The position numbers and the translations under genes were made by a program. From positions 1-36,412 of the forward strand of contig JAOUHJ010000029.1 of the NCBI GenBank assembly GCA_029865225.1: a stretch of 36,412 nt of DNA. Reading direction: 5' to 3'. The notes below the pieces were generated by a model, which saw only the letters and a list, made by a program, of their open reading frames with translations, did no database searches and was not told the DNA's origin. Source of the DNA: Nitrospira sp. GTDB lineage: Bacteria; Nitrospirota; Nitrospiria; Nitrospirales; Nitrospiraceae. Positions 14,212 through 36,148 of this stretch are shown here, piece after piece. The first letter of the stretch is position 1. Every line of letters begins with the position of its first letter.

Positions 14212-16032
14212 TCACGGTAGTTCAGTGACTTTCTTCCCTTGCAGGCTCTTCTTGAGCGAATCATCCAGCATCACGACGTTCAAGCGCTTCGCGGCCTGTT
14301 CAAGCTCTGCCATGCGCGCGCGGATGACACGAGAATCGCCACCCGTGTTCGCGGCGGACAGCTGAGCAAGTGCGTGGCGAATGCCTTCGACTTCTTCTGT
14401 CGAGATCAAATGTCCCGCATCGGCGAGAGATTTCTTCGTTGTTTTGCTCAACGCCTCGGCGTCCAATCGAGCTTCGATCAATTTCCGCGCGTTGATGTCC
14501 TCTGCCGCGAATTTGAACGAATCTTCGATCATCCGCTCCACTTCTGTGTCCGATAATCCATAAGAGGGCCTGACTTCGATCGACTGGCTTTCCCCGGTTC
14601 GCATATCCTTGGCCGTCACGTTCAAAATCCCATTGGCGTCGATCAAGAAGGTGACCTCGATACGAGGTACTCCCGCCGGAAGCGGCGGTACCTTGAGGCG
14701 GAAGCGTGCCAGGCTCCGGTTATCTTTGACGAGTTCTCGCTCACCCTGCAGAATGTGAATATCGACGCCGGTCTGGCCGTCGACATAGGTGGTGAACATT
14801 TCTTTGGCGCTTGCCGGAATGGTCGTGTTCCGACGGATCAGGCTGCTCATCACTCCGCCCATCGTTTCAATACCGAGCGACAAGGGAGTCACGTCCAAGA
14901 GCAACATGTCTGTGGTTCCACCGCTCAGGATGTCGGCTTGCACGGCCGCTCCGAGCGCGACCACTTCATCCGGGTTCAAGTGGCAATGCGGCGCCTTCCC
15001 AAACAGCGCTTCCACGCGCTGCCGAACCAAGGGCATGCGGATCGAGCCACCCACCAAGACGACTTCGTCGATATCGTGTGGGGTGAGCCCGGCGTCTTTT
15101 AACGCGATGCGACAGGGAGCTAAGGTACGTTCGATGACGCCCACCACGAGGGATTCGAGCTGATCACGCGTCAGCTCTCTGGTAAAGAGTCCCTTGTCCT
15201 CCGGTAGCTCGATTGTGATCTCGGTCTTGAGATCATCAGAAAGGCGTATCTTGGCCCGCTCCGCTTCCAGCCGGACAGTCTGCATGTGATCGGGGTAGCG
15301 GCCGACATCGATCCCGTACCTGTCTCGGATTTCTGCGATAAAGAGATCGACCAGCAAGCGGTCGAGATCGTCTCCGCCAAGGTGGGTATCGCCGTTGGTT
15401 GCCAGCACTTCAAAGATGCCGTCTTTCAACTTCAGGATTGAGATATCGAATGTCCCGCCACCGAAGTCATAGACGGCGATCGTCCCTTGCGTTTTTTCCT
15501 GAAGCCCGTAGGCCAGCGAGGCGGCGGTCGGTTCGTTGATGATGCGCAACACCTCCAACCCGGCAATGAGGCCGGCATCTTTGGTGGCCTGACGCTGGCT
15601 GTCGTTGAAGTAGGCTGGCACGGTAATGACGGCTTTCGTAATGCTTTCACCGAGGTAGGCTTCCCCCCGCAGTTTCAGTTCCTTGAGGATCATGGCGGAG
15701 ATCTGCGGCGGCGAATAGTGCTTTGCGCCGAGCCGGATTCGGATCACACCTCCGGTTTCAGTGAGGTTATAAGGGAAATAGGCCAATTCGCTCTCGACAT
15801 CCGCCAGCCCCTTTCCCATGAACCGTTTCACGGAGTAGACGGTACGCTCAGGATTTCGCGTCAAATGCTCCTTCGCGGGATCTCCGACGATCAAACCATT
15901 GTCCGTCAAGGCGACGACCGAAGGCACCATCGTCCGGCCGTGGCGGTCGGGAACGACACAGGGTTGGCCGTCCTTCATGTAGGCAATCAGAGAGTTGGTC
16001 GTGCCGAGGTCGATGCCGACTATACGTGCCAT
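14212..16032 (-). CDS. hscA: Hsp70-type Fe-S cluster chaperone HscA
   Basis: A 606-residue Hsp70 protein. The nucleotide-binding domain starts GIDLGTTNS (6-14) and has [10 protein letters not shown] and [11 protein letters not shown]; the interdomain linker region reads [11 protein letters not shown]; the substrate-binding beta domain and helical lid follow. Length matches HscA, shorter than DnaK and lacking its long acidic tail. HscA uses ATP to act on IscU through the LPPVK motif (present in the IscU encoded here, residues 98-102) and promotes cluster transfer. It follows hscB by 25 bases in the isc operon. No obvious Shine-Dalgarno sequence precedes the ATG, so translation may be coupled to hscB. 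Confidence 0.96.
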
Positions 16033-16057: not shown

Positions 16058-16780
16058 TCAGGCGATCGTTGCCGCCAGATCGTTGACGATGTTGTTAATA
16101 TAGGTTCGGTGCGACAGTAAATCGCGCATCCGTTTCAGGATTCGATCCCGCTCCGCCCGTGCCTGGCTCGTGGCCTCTCCTCTGTCCTGCAGCTGGTCCC
16201 AGTCCGTAAAGAGCTGCCGAATTTGCGACTCCATCTCTTCTCGGCGCCGTTCCAACGTCTGTTGCTCCGTCTGGAGCGTGGCTCGGAGCCGATGGCCCTC
16301 GTCTGACTCGCGATCCGAGGCCCGGTACTGTTCCAAGGTATCTTGCAACTCCAGGATTTCCTCGAAGAGGTCGGCAGGAGGAGAGGTGCGGATGTCCTTG
16401 ACCGAGCCGGCTTCAAGGGCCAGCAGGTATTCCGCCCGTTGGATGGGATCACGAAGCGTCCGGTAAGCCGTATTGAGTACGGCGGCGTTGCCGAGGCTAA
16501 TCGTTTGCTCCGTCGGACTCTTGGCTTGATAAAAATCAGGATGAAAGGCCCGGCTCAATTCGTAGAATTTGGCTTCCAGCTTTTTGGGATCTAACGTGAG
16601 CCGCCGTGGAAACCCGAGACAGGTGAAGTAGTCGGTGTCCTTCGAGACGGGCTGGACTTTCACGCATCGTTCGCAGAAGTATTCCCCCGACATCGCGGAT
16701 TGACAATGCCAGCACATGCTTCGGGCCATCTGCAGCTGGTGGCGAGTCTCGGGACGGGTAGACGGTTGATCGTTAGCCAT
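16058..16780 (-). CDS. hscB: J-domain co-chaperone HscB with N-terminal zinc motif
   Basis: A 240-residue protein. Residues 23-39 hold a CxxC...CxxC zinc motif (C23, C26, C36, C39), seen in some HscB/HSC20 proteins but absent from the E. coli protein. The J-domain follows (about 50-120) with H80-P-D82, and a C-terminal helical domain about 140-240 binds IscU. HscB stimulates the ATPase of HscA and delivers IscU. The C-terminal helices carry an unusually long charged segment (QTEQQTLERRREEMESQ), which makes the protein longer than the E. coli one (171 residues). It is located between iscA and hscA. The start choice is not backed by a strong ribosome-binding site; a second ATG lies 17 codons in. 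Confidence 0.93.
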   Translation of the reverse strand: MANDQPSTRPETRHQLQMARSMCWHCQSAMSGEYFCERCVKVQPVSKDTDYFTCLGFPRRLTLDPKKLEAKFYELSRAFHPDFYQAKSPTEQTISLGNAAVLNTAYRTLRDPIQRAEYLLALEAGSVKDIRTSPPADLFEEILELQDTLEQYRASDRESDEGHRLRATLQTEQQTLERRREEMESQIRQLFTDWDQLQDRGEATSQARAERDRILKRMRDLLSHRTYINNIVNDLAATIA

Positions 16781-29448: not shown

Positions 29449-29526
29449 GGTCCCATCGTCTAGCCTGGCCTAGGACGGAGCCCTCTCAAGGCTTAAACAC
29501 GGGTTCGAATCCCGTTGGGACCACCA
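29449..29526 (+). tRNA. tRNA-Glu (anticodon CTC)
   Basis: 78 bases including encoded CCA. Acceptor stem GGTCCCA/TGGGACC, D-arm CGTCTAGCCTGGCCTAGGAC, anticodon loop CTCTCAA with CTC at 29485-29487, T-arm GGGTTCGAATCCC. An integrase remnant ends 9 bases past its 3' end, so the 3' part of this tRNA is probably the attachment site of an integrated element. Confidence 0.95.
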
Positions 29527-29534
29527 CTTTGAAT

Positions 29535-30552
29535 TTATTCAAGTTTTGGGCTTTGTGTTTGAGGAACATGCGAATGTTCCTCGAACATGGAGTCGTCCTC
29601 GCTCCGAAAACTCTCCAGCATCTGCCGCGCAGGCTCCTCGTAAAACGACACCGCTTGCTTCAGTTGGGCCGGACGAATCATCGTGTAGATCTGCGTCGTA
29701 TCGATGCGCGCATGGCCGAGCAGTGCGCGCACTTGCTCCAGATCGTGGCGCCGCTCTAAGACTTCCATTGCGACACCATGGCGCAAATCATGCGGCTTCA
29801 ACATGGGATAGCCGATCATCCGTCCATAGAGTTTGCACAACCGCCAGATGTTTTTCCCCGGTCATCGGAGCACGATGCTTCCCGATGGACCGGCGACCCC
29901 ACACGGACCAGAATAACGGTGTCTCCGGTGCGACCGTTGTGACGGACGGCGTGAGAACTTGCGCGACATATGCATGCAGGTACCGCATGACGGATTCGGG
30001 TAACGGAATGTCTCGCGTCTTCCCGCCCTTCACTCGCACACGCCGCAATCCCCAGAGCCCATCCAAGTGTCTGGCTTGGAGGGTTGCCACGGATTCTCGA
30101 CGCATCCCCGAGAAACGCAGAATCAGGAAGATCGCGACATCACGAGGCCGCTGCCGTTTTCTGGCCGCTTCGATCAATGCATCCATCAGGGCCGACGTCG
30201 GCACCTGCTTAGGCGGCTCGATCCGATGCGGAGGCCGATCCATTCCGCTGATGGGATTCGCTGGTAAGACCTCGCGCTTGACCAGCCAGGCACAGAAGCT
30301 GGACAACGTCGACTGTCGGCTTCGGATTGTGCCGAGTGTGAGATCCCGTGCGGCCATCTCATCCATCCAGTCCTGAATCACGGCCTTCGTCAAGTCCGAG
30401 AGTCTGGCGACTCGTCCGAAGCGTGCGCGTCCGAAGAGAAGAAACTGTTCCAAGTTCCAGCGATAGGTTTGCACCCCTCCTTCCGTCTTCCCTCGCTGTT
30501 TGAGTTGGTACTGACAAAACTGCTCCACCAATTCCACTAACGGTCGGGTCAT
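29535..30552 (-). pseudogene. Tyrosine recombinase/integrase split by a frameshift
   Basis: Reading from the ATG at 30552 (perfect AAAGGAG 5 bases upstream), the N-terminal SAM-like domain (LVELVEQFCQYQLKQRGKTEGG) and the first part of the catalytic domain are in one frame: Arg in SGMRRES and Lys in VKGGKTRD. The frame is lost at GGGGAAAAA (29851-29859 on the plus strand as TTTTTCCCC). Removing one G restores the sequence [18 protein letters not shown] and continues with [17 protein letters not shown] (His and the nucleophile Tyr) to the stop at 29535. All five catalytic positions are thus present, split over two frames. A sequencing error in the homopolymer is possible. It targets the neighbouring tRNA-Glu and defines the left edge of an island. 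Confidence 0.88.
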
Positions 30553-30692
30553 GACAGCTCCTTTCCGGTCCCTGCCACGACTACGACTTCGCCGAGCGGC
30601 AGTATGCGGAGGGACGACCCACCCGTCAAGCGAAGAGGAAAGCAGTTCTGAGTCTATGTCCATGGGCGCACTTGAGTCTGTCATCATGCTGC

Positions 30693-30899
30693 GTGTCGAA
30701 AATCGGGGGCGTCGTTCGACACCCCCGTGCCCCCGTTTCCGTGCTCGCGTCGGAACGCCAGCCACTCAGTGGCGGCTGAGCTTCGCGGGGAGCAGCGGGC
30801 CAACCCTCCTGCCGCATCCAGGTTTGCCTTCTGCAAGGCGCTGCGCTCAGCGACAGGGATATGGTTCCCTGCCCTTCATTGAGCTGGGGGGCAGGGAAC
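30693..30899. other. Structured non-coding DNA with several inverted repeats
   Basis: In the 356 bases between the integrase start and the zinc-ribbon gene (30553-30908) there is no convincing gene but several palindromes. GTGTCGAA/TTCGACAC lies at 30693-30700 and 30715-30722. GCCACT-c-AGTGGC lies at 30761-30773. A long hairpin pairs 30864-30877 with 30886-30899 (core GTTCCCTGCCC/GGGCAGGGAAC with an 8-base loop). The last one lies 9 bases past the stop of the zinc-ribbon gene, so it could end its transcript, though no T-run follows. Confidence 0.55.
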
Positions 30900-30908
30900 G
30901 GTGTTGAG

Positions 30909-31361
30909 TTACCGGACGAGGGCCTTCAGTTGGTCTTTCTCCAGCTTGGCCCCGAATTCCCGTTCCAACCGGTCAGCCATCTCCTGCCAGGTTCGGCCAG
31001 CGGCTTTCATCTCCTTGAGCACCGTTAATGCGTGTGCTAGGGAGCGGTCGTTGTGATCTCCTGGGTGGTCAGCGTCCTTGCTCCTAAAGGCCTTGGTGAG
31101 CGTCTGGCCGAGGCTGTGGGACAGCGTCTCTTTGTTCACCGATTCGTTCGAAGGTGTGACAGCCTGCCGCACTCGCCGTGGCTTGTCCCAGTAGGGGCTC
31201 TTGCATCCGGGGCATCGAACCGGCTTTCGTGGCTGGCGGGGCCACCACACCTTGCCGCAGCGGTAACAACGTTGCTGGTTCAGGCTGGCAGGCCGTCCAC
31301 TTCCCGATAGGAGTACTCTCAAGCGAGCAGGATTTTGGTCGAATCGCTTGGAAAGACTCAT
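30909..31361 (-). CDS. Zinc-ribbon protein of the integrated element
   Basis: A 150-residue basic protein, not recognised as a named family. Residues 32-53 form a zinc ribbon (C32-x2-C35, C50-x2-C53: RCYRCGKVWW...VRCPGCKSPYW). The C-terminal 35 residues (AGRTWQEMADRLEREFGAKLEKDQLKALVR) look like a helix-turn-helix-like helical pair seen in phage and plasmid accessory proteins. It overlaps the stop of the HTH gene by 4 bases, so the two are coupled. This order (excisionase-like HTH, small DNA-binding protein, integrase) is typical of the control end of an integrative element. Confidence 0.65.
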   Translation of the reverse strand: MSLSKRFDQNPARLRVLLSGSGRPASLNQQRCYRCGKVWWPRQPRKPVRCPGCKSPYWDKPRRVRQAVTPSNESVNKETLSHSLGQTLTKAFRSKDADHPGDHNDRSLAHALTVLKEMKAAGRTWQEMADRLEREFGAKLEKDQLKALVR

Positions 31362-31648
31362 GGTTTAGTGCCTGGAAATAGCGCCCCCGTTTGACTAAGC
31401 GGGGGCTGGGCCTCGATGGGCGGTCGGCGTGCGCCGCTCGCGGCGCATCGCCGGGCGCTCACATAGGCCTCGGCCTGGCGCTGCATCACCCGATGGACTT
31501 CCTCTAGGTCGAACCGGAGTGCGGTCTTCACGCGGATCGCGGGGAGGTCGCCTCGCCGGTAGGCCCGTCGAATGGTATCGGTGCTGACCCGCAGGAGCGC
31601 AGCCAATTCTCGAATCGACACGCGCGGGTTGTGAGATGTCCTCATCAT
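31358..31648 (-). CDS. Excisionase-like helix-turn-helix protein
   Basis: About 96 residues. The MerR/Xis-like winged helix occupies 7-55: RVSIRELAALLRVSTDTIRRAYRRGDLPAIRV, then LRFDLEEVHRVMQRQ. It is followed by a short Arg/Pro-rich tail. Two adjacent ATGs at 31648 and 31645 follow a strong GGAGGAGGAG site. Excisionases bend DNA at the element's ends to direct the integrase to excision; some also act as repressors. Three 10-bp direct repeats lie about 100 bases upstream (31751-31782). The 4-base overlap with the zinc-ribbon gene shows an operon. Confidence 0.78.
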   Translation of the reverse strand: MMRTSHNPRVSIRELAALLRVSTDTIRRAYRRGDLPAIRVKTALRFDLEEVHRVMQRQAEAYVSARRCAASGARRPPIEAQPPLSQTGALFPGTKP

Positions 31649-32094
31649 GCTCCTCCTCCGTAAACAGGACTCATGGAACAACGAGACTCAAGTACCGCCA
31701 GGGGCGAGCGTAGCGGACTGACACAAGAAAGGAAATTAGGCAGGAAGGGACAGGAGAGGTCACCAGAGGTCAGGAGTGGTCATCTCGTTCTCAGGGAGAC
31801 GATTCACAGAATGCTTCGTCAAACGCTGAAGAGCCGCTCCTAGACTGACCGAAGTCGAGCATGTGAGTGTTGCGAGAGGTACAGATCGACAGAATTTCGA
31901 TGCTGCTCAGAAGATATTTTCAGGGGGAGGCGGAGGAATATGGCCCAACATGCACTGTGGGACAACTCGCCACTACCGCCTTTACGCGGGTTTGGGACAA
32001 TCCCGCCGACGCCGACTCTGACCGGCTATGAGATGGATGGTTCTAGCCTTGTGAGGTCGGCTGATTGCTCTTTCGGAGTGCAGAACGTTGACTG
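31649..32094. other. Intergenic region upstream of the HTH gene
   Basis: 446 bases without a supported gene. It carries the three direct repeats described separately. Short open frames in it look random (no ribosome-binding site and low-complexity peptides). It separates the integrase/HTH block from the toxin-antitoxin block. Confidence 0.5.
31751..31782. repeat. Three tandem 10-bp direct repeats (iteron-like)
   Basis: Consecutive decamers CAGGAGAGGT, CACCAGAGGT and CAGGAGTGGT, followed by a further CA. The 10-base period puts all copies on one face of the helix, as in excisionase or regulator binding sites. They lie 103 bases upstream of the excisionase-like gene. Confidence 0.6.
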
Positions 32095-32325
32095 TTACGT
32101 CAGCTGGTATACCCGTCCTACGGCTGGCGGGGTGATCGCTTTGCGCACAAAGTCTTCCCGCACTTGTTCCAATCGACGCATGATGTCGGCGGAGTAGTAC
32201 GCCTCTCCGCATTGCGTGCAGGCCTCGGCGTCCACAGTCACCAAGAGGTGATCGTTCCCGATCTTGATTTCCGCTTCCACTTTCTTCGCTCTGACCTCGC
32301 CGCGCTTACAAATGACACATGTCAT
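32095..32325 (-). CDS. YgiT-type zinc-finger protein (putative antitoxin)
   Basis: About 76 residues with the MqsA N-terminal type zinc motif: C3-x2-C6 (MTCVICKRG) and C36-x2-C39 (EACTQCGEAYYS). The family is the zinc domain of MqsA-like antitoxins; here the protein ends after a helix (RRLEQVREDFVRKA) and has no Xre DNA-binding domain. The ATG at 32325 overlaps the stop of the DUF4258 gene (ATGA) and GGAGGAAA lies about 8 bases upstream. The frame continues to 32346, with a TTG as alternative. A DUF4258/YgiT pair with the antitoxin second is a common arrangement. Confidence 0.82.
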   Translation of the reverse strand: MTCVICKRGEVRAKKVEAEIKIGNDHLLVTVDAEACTQCGEAYYSADIMRRLEQVREDFVRKAITPPAVGRVYQLT

Positions 32326-32642
32326 CGCATTTTCCTCCGTCGCCAATCAGCTTCCCATCGCGAGGGGTCTGGCTGATAGACCGTGATGATGATCAGTCGG
32401 CCTTCGTCCACGACTGGAGCGCACACGACGTGCAAAGCTCTGCCTTCCTGGGTGCGTCCAAAAATGAGGCAACTCGGATACGGCCCGTCATCAGGATACT
32501 CCTCGATGATTCCCCCAGAGTCAAGCACCTCCAGAATTTCGTCAACGGAGATGCGGCCCAACGGCTCCGTTTCCATCTCCCGGCGGGCGTGATCTGTAAA
32601 GCGACAACCCTGGACGCACTGACGAATCGTATCATAGTTCAT
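32322..32642 (-). CDS. DUF4258 protein (putative toxin)
   Basis: About 106 residues with the DUF4258 pattern: FTDHARREM (about 16-24), a central EILEVLDSGGIIEEYPDDGPYPSCLI and a strand pair GRALHVVCA...LIIITVY followed by a basic end (WRRRK). DUF4258 proteins resemble the BrnT/RelE-like RNase fold and are usually found with a YgiT zinc-finger partner. The ATG at 32642 follows GGAGGAG by about 12 bases; a GTG at 32663 is possible. It forms a translationally coupled pair with the gene downstream and diverges from the MazF pair. Toxin activity is inferred from the family. Confidence 0.8.
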   Translation of the reverse strand: MNYDTIRQCVQGCRFTDHARREMETEPLGRISVDEILEVLDSGGIIEEYPDDGPYPSCLIFGRTQEGRALHVVCAPVVDEGRLIIITVYQPDPSRWEADWRRRKMR

Positions 32643-32783
32643 GCGGCGTTGGCGCTCCTCCACACATCAGATGATGCTTCAGTGCTGTGGGAGAGTGCAT
32701 GGTAGCGGATGTTTCCCCAAAATGCATCCAGCCTCAGAAGGCGAAATCTTGCGGGGGAGGGTGAAACGTGGTACCGTCACCGC

Positions 32784-32969
32784 ATGACGCAGCTCGCCCA
32801 AAAACTCGACAAAAAGCTCGCCTCGTGGCGGCCTGAGGTGGCGGCTCAAGTGGAGCAAATCGTCACCGACGTGATCGAACTGGCCGACACCGACACCCTG
32901 GATCTGCAGCCTTCGCGAGCTGTCGTGCAAGAAGTGCTCGATACCCTCGATGAACGCCAAGCCGGGTGA
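32784..32969 (+). CDS. Putative antitoxin upstream of a MazF-like toxin
   Basis: About 61 residues, acidic in its C-terminal half (VTDVIELADTDTLDLQ, EVLDTLDERQ) as expected for the unfolded toxin-binding part of an antitoxin. No DNA-binding motif is evident. Its end overlaps the start of the MazF-like gene by 20 bases. The ATG at 32784 has no good ribosome-binding site (a GGGGGAGGG lies about 27 bases upstream), and the frame is open back to 32709, so the N-terminus is uncertain. The role is inferred from gene order. Confidence 0.6.
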   Translation: MTQLAQKLDKKLASWRPEVAAQVEQIVTDVIELADTDTLDLQPSRAVVQEVLDTLDERQAG

Positions 32970-33267
32970 CATCTGGCTGGCCGATCTTGGGTTGGCTGCT
33001 AAGACCCGCCCTGTTCTTATCGTCTCTCGCTTCGATCCCGACGCTCCCCGAGCACTTATCACATACGTTCCACTGACCACGCAACATCGGGGCAGTCGGT
33101 ACGAAATTCAGCTCGGCGATCTTCCCTTCTTGCACCAAACATCAGTCGTTAACGTCCAAGGTATTGGCTCTTTGATCGAACCCAGGCTTGAGCGCAAACT
33201 GGGTCAGCTTTCCGCTGCCACGATGGCCAAGGTCAAAGACGCCATTCGCTTCGCACTCGAACTGTAA
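32950..33267 (+). CDS. MazF/PemK family endoribonuclease toxin
   Basis: A 105-residue protein of the MazF/PemK (CcdB-like) fold: KPGDIWLADLG, KTRPVLIVS with the conserved Arg and Pro, then ITYVPLTTQHRGSRYEIQL, an NVQGIGSLIEP segment and a last helix KVKDAIRFALEL. These toxins cut mRNA at short sequences. The start overlaps the upstream small gene by 20 bases, giving an antitoxin-toxin pair. It lies on the plus strand, facing away from the DUF4258/YgiT pair, with about 140 bases between the two systems that must hold both promoters. Confidence 0.9.
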   Translation: MNAKPGDIWLADLGLAAKTRPVLIVSRFDPDAPRALITYVPLTTQHRGSRYEIQLGDLPFLHQTSVVNVQGIGSLIEPRLERKLGQLSAATMAKVKDAIRFALEL

Positions 33268-33366
33268 TTTTGTGATTTCTGGGCAAATGACAGTAGAAGG
33301 GATCATGGGTGACACCTATCCTGCTTACTTGCGAGGGTGCCAGACTAGTGCGTTAGGCATGCACAT

Positions 33367-33990
33367 ATGAAAATCAATGCCCCGAACAATCCAGAAGACT
33401 ACTTTCGAGAAACGGCGCACGCGGTGAAACACTTCTACGCTGGCCTAGATTCCTGCTGGCTGTGCTATCAGGAAGGCCTTCAACATTGGGATATGAGCCA
33501 AGTTAGTCAGCCCATGACGGCGGAGAGAAAAGCGGCGCTCAATCGCTATCTGGAGTCAGCTGGCAAGTACTTCGATCTCAAGTTTTCGGAAGCGATGTTG
33601 GTCGGCGCGATTCTGCAGGTCGCTTATATGGCCATCAGACTCTATTCGCGTAACAACTCCATCCCCACCAGCTGCGCTGTGCTGGTCGCGTCGTCGAACA
33701 TGTCAGCAATCCCATTCTGCATTGGTCAAGAACGGCACGGGGTTCCAATCGGGCTTATCGTCTATGCTGCCAGGAATCAATATAACCACTGGGATGAAAC
33801 ACCTCACGATATTCCGAGGAAGGTCTTCAGTGCCTTGTCAGCTTCGTTCGAGCACAATGTGCTTGCTGACCTTGCTTTCGAACTCTCAAACCCGACGATC
33901 AACGTCTATGCGAGTGAGGTGTTGCTCCTGGCTCTGGGTTGGAGGTCATACGACACATATCTAGCAGAAATGAAGTCTTTGCTCATTTAG
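33367..33990 (+). CDS. Unknown protein with a HEPN-like RNxxxH motif
   Basis: A 207-residue protein, not recognised. It is mainly helical with short hydrophobic segments (EAMLVGAILQVAYMAIRLY about 75-93, and VPIGLIVYAA about 126-135) and ends with YASEVLLLALGW. R136-N137-QYN-H141 fits the HEPN ribonuclease motif (RNxxxH), placed after the hydrophobic helix as in HEPN proteins. That is a single short motif and may be chance. The gene precedes the J-domain protein by 79 bases on the same strand, so a two-gene unit is possible. It could equally be a soluble helical protein of other function. Confidence 0.55.
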   Translation: MKINAPNNPEDYFRETAHAVKHFYAGLDSCWLCYQEGLQHWDMSQVSQPMTAERKAALNRYLESAGKYFDLKFSEAMLVGAILQVAYMAIRLYSRNNSIPTSCAVLVASSNMSAIPFCIGQERHGVPIGLIVYAARNQYNHWDETPHDIPRKVFSALSASFEHNVLADLAFELSNPTINVYASEVLLLALGWRSYDTYLAEMKSLLI

Positions 33991-34069
33991 CCAGTGAGGC
34001 TCAGCCAGTGCGAGACATCGCGTTGGCCTACTTCCACAATTTGGGCTAAGTTCACGGAGCTATTGCTGC

Positions 34070-36148
34070 ATGCTCAAGTTCCTGAAACGCCTTCTCGGTC
34101 TGGAAACTCCCTCCGTGCGGGGTTACTGCGAGCCAGGCGTTGAGGCCTGTACACTTGCTCCAACGCCTTCTGCCAATGAGAGAGCTTTCAAAACTTACTT
34201 TACCACATTGGGGCAACTGCAGGAAGCGGTCACAAAACGGGAATACGAACGGGCTGCAGGTCTTGCGCGAGAGAACATGCGACAGGTTTCAGGATTCGTC
34301 CAAAGCACGGAGCGCGAGTACGGTTCGTTCGATATTTCTTCCATACCCGCACTTGAGCAGGGGGGAACCATGTTAGCTCTTTTGGGAGACACGGAGGGGC
34401 TAAAGGAGATGCGGGAAATTGTTGGTTCGTTACCCGCGCTTGGGTCATGGCGCTCCGTGGTCGATCAGCACGAAAAGGATCGGAGTTGGTTTGCCGCAAT
34501 TCTTGCAGCCATTGAGGCGAATCCTGGCTGCTTACAGAGCGATATCAAAGATCTCATTGGTGCTGAAGATGGTCGTCGAATTGCGAACCTTCTCGCATGG
34601 CTGGAGAAGGCAGGGAAGATCAGTCGCACGAAGCAGGGACGCACCTATGCCCTAACACTCGCCCATTCAGTTCGCGTTACAGCGTCTCCACTCAAAAGGG
34701 AGGTCCGATCGCATCGGTCGGATCAAAGGCCTTCCCAGCTTCGTGAGATCGACTTGCAGCACCTACCTTACGTGCCACTGCCGCGAGCGCCACTTCGGTG
34801 GGAGGAGGTGCAAGGGGGGCGCAAGACCGAAATGGTCGAAGATGCCCATGACTTCTTCGAGATCCGCGACAGCGAAGAATGGGAACTCTTATCGGTTGAG
34901 AAAATCCCAACGGATAAGCGTCCGGACCCGGCTTTCCGTGAGATTCACTCAATCGATTCGGGACTAATCATGGTTGACGATCTAGGAAAGTCAGAGAAGT
35001 TCACACACGCACCAGCAGCCGCGCTACGGTTTGGACGTGCCGGAGAGCTAATGGTGGAAGCGCCGCTCATTCACGACGTCTATCGTCTCGGGGTGAATGC
35101 CTTTGGCCATGGTTTGATCGCTATGTCGAAGGACTGCATTGTCCATGCATACGATGACGAGTTCAACGTCATCTTGGAGACGCCGCTTCGAGAATCACCA
35201 GAGGTTCGCACGTTGCAGCATCGACTTGGGATCGAAACAGACAGGCTCAAGAACTACCTCCGTTGTACTGCTCTCGCTCACGACAACAGCCGGTATCTCT
35301 TTACAGGTGTTGATCAGGCATGGTGTGTGTCCATGCAGGGGCATGCTCTGTGGGGGATAAAGCTGCCACTCAAGGAGGGGTGGGCGCGTGTCGCTGAAAA
35401 AACTGCTTCCTTCGGAACGAGTGCTGAAGTGATGCAAGCTCTTGAGGTTATGAATCTGACCCTTCCGATCACGCCCGATGATGTGAAGCGACGCTACCGC
35501 GAACTAGCGAAGCTGTGGCATCCAGACTTGAACCCGGGGAATGCGAGTGCTGAGGAGCGGATGAAGGCGCTCACGGGCGCAGCAGAGATCCTCACCGGGA
35601 TTGATCCAGCGGCACTACCACGCTACACCGGCACAACCTTCGCCAAAGAAATGAACCGACAGGAGTTTGAAGTCGGGGCCACGAAGTTCACCGTTGCAAT
35701 GGCGATGCAAGTGAGTGAGGTGAATGCAGCGGACTGGATCTATGCTGCCAATTTTGCGGGCCGCTCACAGGGTGCCTTCCTCGCTGGATATTCTGGACGA
35801 ATCGTTCAGGTGGACGGCGAAGGTGAACCGGTGCGCGCCTACGACATTGGGGCAGTCCCGCGGAAGATCATCGACACAGGTGACTATCTTTACTTTCTTA
35901 CGGACACCCGCCTCTATGTCCTGCATAGTGATGCCCTACATGCACTCGTCGACACTGTCGACGGCGGGAATATCATCGTGGCGCAGACAGGATTTGGTCT
36001 CATTGAGAAGAAGCGTTTCCGGTGGTTCCGGGAGGACGGAACCTACCTTGGATCGATTGTGACACAGAGTCCGATCCCCGAGTGTACTATGCTTCGGAAG
36101 GGATGGTTGTCGAGACCAGACAACACAAAACGACCATTACTGGTATAG
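34070..36148 (+). CDS. Large protein with winged-helix segment, internal J-domain and beta-propeller-like flanks
   Basis: 692 residues, not recognised as a named protein. Residues 40-100 form an acidic helical region. About 140-197 looks like a winged helix (WFAAILAAIEANPGC, then RRIANLLAWLEKAGKI and RTYALTL). About 290-440 reads as beta-propeller-like strands (AFGHGLIAMSKDCIVHAYDD, CTALAHDNSRYLFTGVDQ). A J-domain of about 465-515 carries H484-P-D486 in KLWHPDLNPGN. A second beta region follows (GYSGRIVQVDGEGEPVRAYDI, DYLYFLTDTRLYVLHSDA). A J-domain in the middle of a protein between beta repeats is unusual; most lie at the N-terminus. GGAG lies 11 bases before the ATG. J-domains recruit Hsp70; the rest could bind a substrate or sense a signal. 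Function unknown. Confidence 0.75.
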   Translation: MLKFLKRLLGLETPSVRGYCEPGVEACTLAPTPSANERAFKTYFTTLGQLQEAVTKREYERAAGLARENMRQVSGFVQSTEREYGSFDISSIPALEQGGTMLALLGDTEGLKEMREIVGSLPALGSWRSVVDQHEKDRSWFAAILAAIEANPGCLQSDIKDLIGAEDGRRIANLLAWLEKAGKISRTKQGRTYALTLAHSVRVTASPLKREVRSHRSDQRPSQLREIDLQHLPYVPLPRAPLRWEEVQGGRKTEMVEDAHDFFEIRDSEEWELLSVEKIPTDKRPDPAFREIHSIDSGLIMVDDLGKSEKFTHAPAAALRFGRAGELMVEAPLIHDVYRLGVNAFGHGLIAMSKDCIVHAYDDEFNVILETPLRESPEVRTLQHRLGIETDRLKNYLRCTALAHDNSRYLFTGVDQAWCVSMQGHALWGIKLPLKEGWARVAEKTASFGTSAEVMQALEVMNLTLPITPDDVKRRYRELAKLWHPDLNPGNASAEERMKALTGAAEILTGIDPAALPRYTGTTFAKEMNRQEFEVGATKFTVAMAMQVSEVNAADWIYAANFAGRSQGAFLAGYSGRIVQVDGEGEPVRAYDIGAVPRKIIDTGDYLYFLTDTRLYVLHSDALHALVDTVDGGNIIVAQTGFGLIEKKRFRWFREDGTYLGSIVTQSPIPECTMLRKGWLSRPDNTKRPLLV

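Follow-up and report, generated by a model that had tools for sequence, protein, structure and literature searches.

A cassette-borne, probable HEPN-type RNase and a plasmid-associated J-domain protein of unusual build share a genomic island in Nitrospira

In small proteins, an RNxxxH motif that forms the best-conserved block of the sequence is the hallmark of HEPN RNases (PMC3710099). Anantharaman et al. (2013) described an "integron cassette HEPN" family, represented by PDB 3JRT, the members of which were proposed to be dormancy-inducing RNases (PMC3710099), and PDB 3JRT is the protein Vpc_cass2 (PMC3548836). In sacsin, a J-domain and a HEPN domain are joined within one chain (PMC3710099). 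The Hsp70 machine of the DnaK/DnaJ type is known to remodel the replication initiators of plasmids and secondary chromosomes, for example RctB (PMC5395669). Here, we analysed a Nitrospira locus in which the gene of an RNxxxH protein (protein A) is followed by the gene of a J-domain protein (protein B). On balance we favour the reading that these are two independently mobile genes sharing an island rather than one system, protein A being a solo, cassette-borne RNase of the HEPN type and protein B a specialised J-domain co-chaperone.

The stretch of DNA that was analysed (the window, 36,412 nucleotides) is a whole contig that ends 264 bases past gene B. It contains an island of ~7 kb, which begins at a tRNA-Glu gene and in which A and B lie:

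29449–29526, plus strand: tRNA-Glu (ctc), identified by ARAGORN, the presumed integration site of the island
29670–30765, minus strand: tyrosine integrase of the island, in two frames (29788–30765 and 29670–29798)
31358–31681, minus strand: HTH_17 (excisionase-like) protein (Pfam PF12728, 4.5e-9)
32095–32346, minus strand: MqsA-like antitoxin (Pfam PF15731, 4.2e-5, below the cut-off)
32322–32663, minus strand: DUF4258 protein (Pfam PF14076, 6e-24), the likely toxin to the MqsA-like antitoxin
32709–32969, plus strand: small ORF overlapping pemK, presumed from its position to be the antitoxin, with no family match
32950–33267, plus strand: PemK/MazF-like toxin (Pfam PF02452, 4.6e-14)
33352–33358, plus strand: GTTAGGC, 15 nt before the start of A, a sequence of the R′ type (GTTRRRY) known from integron cassette junctions
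33367–33990, plus strand: protein A, 207 aa, ATG start, a probable HEPN-type RNase, solo and derived from an integron cassette
33772–33789, plus strand: the RNQYNH (RNxxxH) motif of A, residues 136–141
34070–36148, plus strand: protein B, 692 aa, ATG start, with a helical N-domain, a winged helix and a beta-propeller into which a J-domain is inserted

The integrase matches Phage_int_SAM_1 (1.9e-6) and Phage_integrase (1.3e-5) in Pfam, and its C-terminal piece, which sits in a separate ORF, scores 34 bits against TIGR02249. Because the gene is split into two frames, the island is probably immobile. The tRNA, the integrase, the MqsA-like/DUF4258 pair and PemK bear out the preliminary description of the locus as a tRNA-Glu island with toxin-antitoxin genes, and the ORFs reported there, an RNxxxH protein of 207 residues and, 79 bases downstream on the same strand, a protein of 692 residues, were confirmed as well. 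Two features listed here go beyond that description, namely the GTTAGGC upstream of A and a shifted reading frame in the tail of B. A scan of the A–B pair for promoters and terminators gave background-level results. Elsewhere in the window, a second, diverged J-domain protein (16058–16780, a 259-aa open frame below the Pfam cut-off) directly adjoins a DnaK-like gene (14212–16032).

Homologues of protein A were found in three genomes of the Nitrospira family (G026, G001 and G403) and on plasmids of Polaromonas and Variovorax; the G001 copy is partial and contains one stop, and the G403 copy also contains one stop. In addition to these five, the Nitrospirota genome G205 holds a 31-aa N-terminal remnant. 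Full-length homologues are ~26–30% identical to the window copy. The RNxxxH motif is the best-conserved block: among the six sequences that span it (A of the window and the five homologues), RNQxxH is invariant, and the same six retain the extended signature [FYH]A-x-RNQ-[YFH]-x-H-x-[DN]-[DE], in which the position after the histidine is aromatic or hydrophobic. Scans of viral contigs and of phage records with A gave no match.

The DNA flanking the A genes carries the marks of integron cassettes. GTTRRRY is the R′ half of integron attC sites, and it occurs 11–15 nt before the start in four of the six testable A genes (15 nt in the window and in G205, 14 nt in Polaromonas and 11 nt in G026), compared with 12 of 354 background ORFs (3.4%; binomial P 1.9e-5). 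Comparison of the upstream DNA showed that the window and G205 have CGTTAGG in common just 5′ of the A start. At the other end of the gene, RYYYAAC (R″) was found at or next to the stop in three of six cases (Polaromonas, G001 and G403) against a background of 14 of 354 (P 1e-3). The Polaromonas gene has GTTAGAC on one side and, on the other, GCCTAAC and GTTAAAT enclosing a perfect hairpin of 15 bp (z −5.4), so that its 3′ end reads as a complete, textbook attC-like site and the gene itself as a one-gene cassette. G026 has a site directly upstream of A in which TTCTAAC and GTTAGAC match, and this site separates A from a 96-aa ORF. Judged by these junctions, the A family is encoded in integron gene cassettes.

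In G026, the A gene was also seen to lie within a row of small ORFs with attC-like junctions (L022 9416–10699, L002 2233–2523); an integron integrase was not found near this row, which resembles a cassette cluster without integrase. The integron integrase is intact in G205 and present as two pieces in G001. In the genome of the window, another contig carries a C-terminal piece of an integron integrase (G000:C62:42318-42776, equal to L075 6319–6777), and a possible attC-like site, GCCTAAC...GTTGGGC, was observed at L075 7554–7619, ~0.8 kb downstream of that piece. Around A of the window, no complete attC was seen. Because the upstream junction alone is visible, we read this copy as a former or decayed cassette. 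A simple attC scan that required matched R″ and R′ returned no site in the island of the window, a scan of little power since it also missed the evident Polaromonas site.

The following segments were placed on the sequence of protein B:

34466–34654, plus strand: winged-helix segment, residues ~133–195
35015–35362, plus strand: first beta-propeller part, residues 316–431, from the predicted structure
35444–35596, plus strand: J-domain (Pfam PF00226), residues 459–509, with HPD at residues 484–486 (35519–35527)
35741–36112, plus strand: second beta-propeller part, residues 558–681, from the predicted structure
36077–36148, plus strand: out-of-frame tail, with one base fewer than the related locus L012 after 36077

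The J-domain matches PF00226 at E 5.5e-10 (39.6 bits, cut-off 27.8), and HPD is present both in B of the window and in its plasmid relatives. The winged helix matches a PHROG transcriptional activator at E 7e-5 and Pfam HTH_34 at E 0.18 only. The predicted model is confident for a helical domain at residues about 35–150, and its residues 288–673 align with propellers (Foldseek, VIA) at Z up to 14.8; because the model has a pLDDT of 57, we hold the propeller assignment with moderate confidence. In this model the strands form one propeller, and the J-domain is an insertion between its blades rather than a linker of two propellers. The winged helix and the HPD-intact J-domain of the preliminary description are thus retained, and the two propeller-like regions given there are replaced by a single, interrupted propeller. 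Protein B departs from the canonical DnaJ/CbpA layout, in which an N-terminal J-domain is followed by a G/F region and substrate domains at the C-terminus, in that its J-domain lies at residues 459–509, inside the propeller, and no C-terminal DnaJ domain was matched in Pfam. The ~10 N-terminal residues (window 34070–34100) form a conserved, amphipathic-looking stretch, MLKFLKRLLG, which reads MFGIFRKIFG in relatives; the G205 counterpart is hydrophobic, which suggests membrane contact. Open-licence papers on plasmid J-domain, propeller and winged-helix proteins yielded nothing on this architecture, and B is apparently an undescribed, plasmid-associated J-protein of unusual build.

Four Rhodobacterales plasmids and three IMG/VR contigs carry full-length relatives of B (33–39% identity). 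The position on the plasmids is constant: the gene follows repC at a distance of ~3.5–4 kb and reads in the same direction (L013, L014, L015 and L016 with L079), and its neighbours encode an ArdC-like metallopeptidase, SSB, RadC, DUF932, DUF2958 and toxin-antitoxin proteins. In two of the four plasmids, a toxin-antitoxin module (HipA, AbiEii) and an ArdC-like gene were seen between repC and the B relative. The three IMG/VR contigs carry phage or SOS genes. From these positions behind repC and from the phage and SOS genes of the IMG/VR contigs, we conclude that B is a gene of mobile-element backbones. On two IMG/VR contigs (L024 5746–9941 and L082 4803–10103), B was noted next to UmuC/UmuD-like or DinB/SRAP-like SOS genes, as judged by eye from the translations. 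Phage records scanned with B gave matches to the J-domain only. A scan of genome contigs with the single B sequence reached one close relative, L012, from a Nitrospira MAG to which the genome of the window is close.

It is possible, if somewhat doubtful, that most of this locus is by now a decaying relic that has no function any more. In B, the final ~24 residues are out of frame compared with all relatives, the island integrase is broken into two frames, and B of the window, 96% identical to that of L012 in DNA over 1,131 bp, shows a dN/dS of about 0.53 in this comparison. The sister copy itself is truncated at the N-terminus, stands beside transposase-like ORFs and has HSD in place of HPD. 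On the other hand, A is intact including its motif, B retains HPD and most of the propeller, the one-base gap after 36077 may be an assembly error as well as real decay, and an intact copy compared with a dead one would be expected to yield a dN/dS of 0.5. The B gene of L012 (93% identical) was observed to lack its N-terminal half and to be flanked by transposase-like ORFs at L012 2746–4904.

The preliminary description had proposed A and B as parts of one candidate system. A search for A in seven B-carrying records or genomes besides that of the window found it in none of the seven; reciprocally, the N-domain of B was absent from five genomes or plasmids that carry A and present only in those of the window and G205. 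Because A occurs without B and B without A in most genomes, the one-system proposal largely falls, and G205, with its remnant, is the one partial exception. Among 295 Nitrospirota genomes, a clear B N-domain was found in two, those of the window and G205, with one further, weak match in G022. In both genomes with a clear match, A or a remnant of it adjoins the B N-domain. The ORF in G205 (29% identity over 121 aa, E 5e-18) is frameshifted and has neither J-domain nor propeller, and the A remnant follows it after ~0.1 kb, so that the gene order is opposite to that of the window, where A precedes B. Adjacency is not conserved: A and B co-occur in the window and, in fragmentary form, in G205 alone. 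Two rare families that adjoin twice are unlikely to do so by chance alone, and a link must therefore exist, either by a shared vehicle or by function; the reversed order in G205 is best explained by a shared vehicle, for example shuffled cassettes.

A functional link would take the form of a two-gene stress or defence module specific to Nitrospirota, in which B would sense unfolded or foreign protein through the propeller or the winged helix, recruit DnaK and release or restrain A, much like a split counterpart of sacsin. The adjacency in both genomes, the same-strand arrangement with its 79-bp gap and the sacsin precedent for a J-domain combined with HEPN are consistent with such a module, which we nevertheless consider unlikely: A stands without B in five other genomes or plasmids, B without A in the seven records or genomes searched, the G205 order is reversed with B lacking J-domain and propeller and A reduced to 31 aa, and the Polaromonas A gene is a one-gene cassette. 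The more specific version, in which the cassette-borne HEPN RNase and B, with its J-domain in the propeller as in the window, act in Nitrospirota as a chaperone-coupled sensor of stress or phage, a bacterial split sacsin, appears less likely still. The apparent two-gene defence operon is most likely a false lead that dissolves once the relatives are compared.

No family in Pfam, NCBIfam, PADLOC or PHROGs was matched by A and its relatives, individual family members and loose thresholds included, and comparison with PDB sequences gave no match at E up to 10 and hence none to Vpc_cass2 (3JRT). In hhalign, the A family obtained no score against members of PF05168 and PF18736; the best local match to PF18736 laid RNxxxH over RNxxxH at 0.3% probability, in a test in which the HEPN-against-HEPN positive control failed too. 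The profile-profile test is thus without power, since two accepted HEPN families missed each other. In the HEPN fold, four helices form a bundle and the motif closes helix 3; the AlphaFold2 model of the single A sequence is unusable for this comparison (pLDDT 37). The earlier HEPN suggestion is supported by the motif, kept in every homologue that covers it, and by the existence of a published family of cassette-borne HEPN proteins, although A was not placed in HEPN by any profile search. Because RNQxxH is kept, the homologues have no B beside them, GTTRRRY and RYYYAAC sites flank the genes and the Polaromonas copy ends in a hairpin, A is probably a solo, cassette-borne HEPN RNase, its activity being predicted. 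In anatomy and vehicle it fits the integron cassette HEPN family, and no homology to 3JRT was detected from sequence. That A is instead a conserved helical RNxxxH protein of another kind, such as a binding protein, would agree with the missing HEPN family match (Pfam, NCBIfam, PADLOC and PDB sequences), the empty profile comparison with two HEPN families and the unusable model, but we consider this quite improbable given that no block of the homologues is better conserved than RNxxxH and that the profile test missed accepted HEPN families as well.

With A and B read as independent genes, protein A would spread as a one-gene integron cassette and, by analogy with the integron-cassette HEPN family, might dimerise, pair two RNxxxH sites and cleave RNA when the cell is stressed or attacked by phage, leading to dormancy. 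Protein B would have its home in the replication region of Rhodobacterales plasmids and in phage-like elements. Its winged helix, its propeller or both may pick the client, which would probably be a replication protein or a regulator bound to DNA. The J-domain would bring the host DnaK to remodel this client, for example a replication initiator, and such recruitment of DnaK is the likeliest mechanism. The two proteins would not be expected to interact. The integron-cassette HEPN idea was put forward in 2013 on the basis of Gammaproteobacteria; protein A would extend it to a family of distinct sequence that occurs in Nitrospirota and on Burkholderiales plasmids, and B yields a testable proposal, namely that plasmids bring their own DnaK recruiter near repABC.

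Compared with known systems, A resembles the integron cassette HEPN proteins (PMC3710099; Vpc_cass2, 3JRT, PMC3548836) in being solo and cassette-borne with a conserved motif (Rx4-6H in those proteins, probable RNases of mobile integrons). It differs in lacking detectable similarity to the sequences of PDB chains, in its distribution (Nitrospirota and Burkholderiales, whereas the known family was described from Gammaproteobacteria) and in the strict RNQxxH-x-[DN][DE] signature that its family adds. With the MNT-HEPN toxins (PF05168 and relatives), A shares an RNxxxH-type motif and the format of a small, probably helical protein; unlike these, it has no nucleotidyltransferase partner, travels alone and shows no profile similarity. 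Sacsin has the linkage of J-domain and HEPN domain and the theme of Hsp70 recruitment in common with the A–B pair, but there both domains belong to one giant eukaryotic polypeptide that contains HSP90-like repeats, whereas A and B are two genes, probably of separate origin. Protein B shares an HPD-bearing J-domain with the class B/C J-domain proteins (CbpA, DNAJC), from which it is set apart by the position of this domain inside a beta-propeller, after a helical N-domain and a winged helix, and by the lack of the DnaJ zinc-finger and C-terminal domains. The initiators of the RctB type offer a parallel in their dependence on Hsp70, with B relatives lying near repABC on plasmids; there, the J-protein is supplied by the host, whereas a plasmid-borne J-protein for RepABC is so far a hypothesis only. 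Protein A is thus a probable new member of the already known cassette-borne HEPN kind, and B is a new variant of J-protein architecture.
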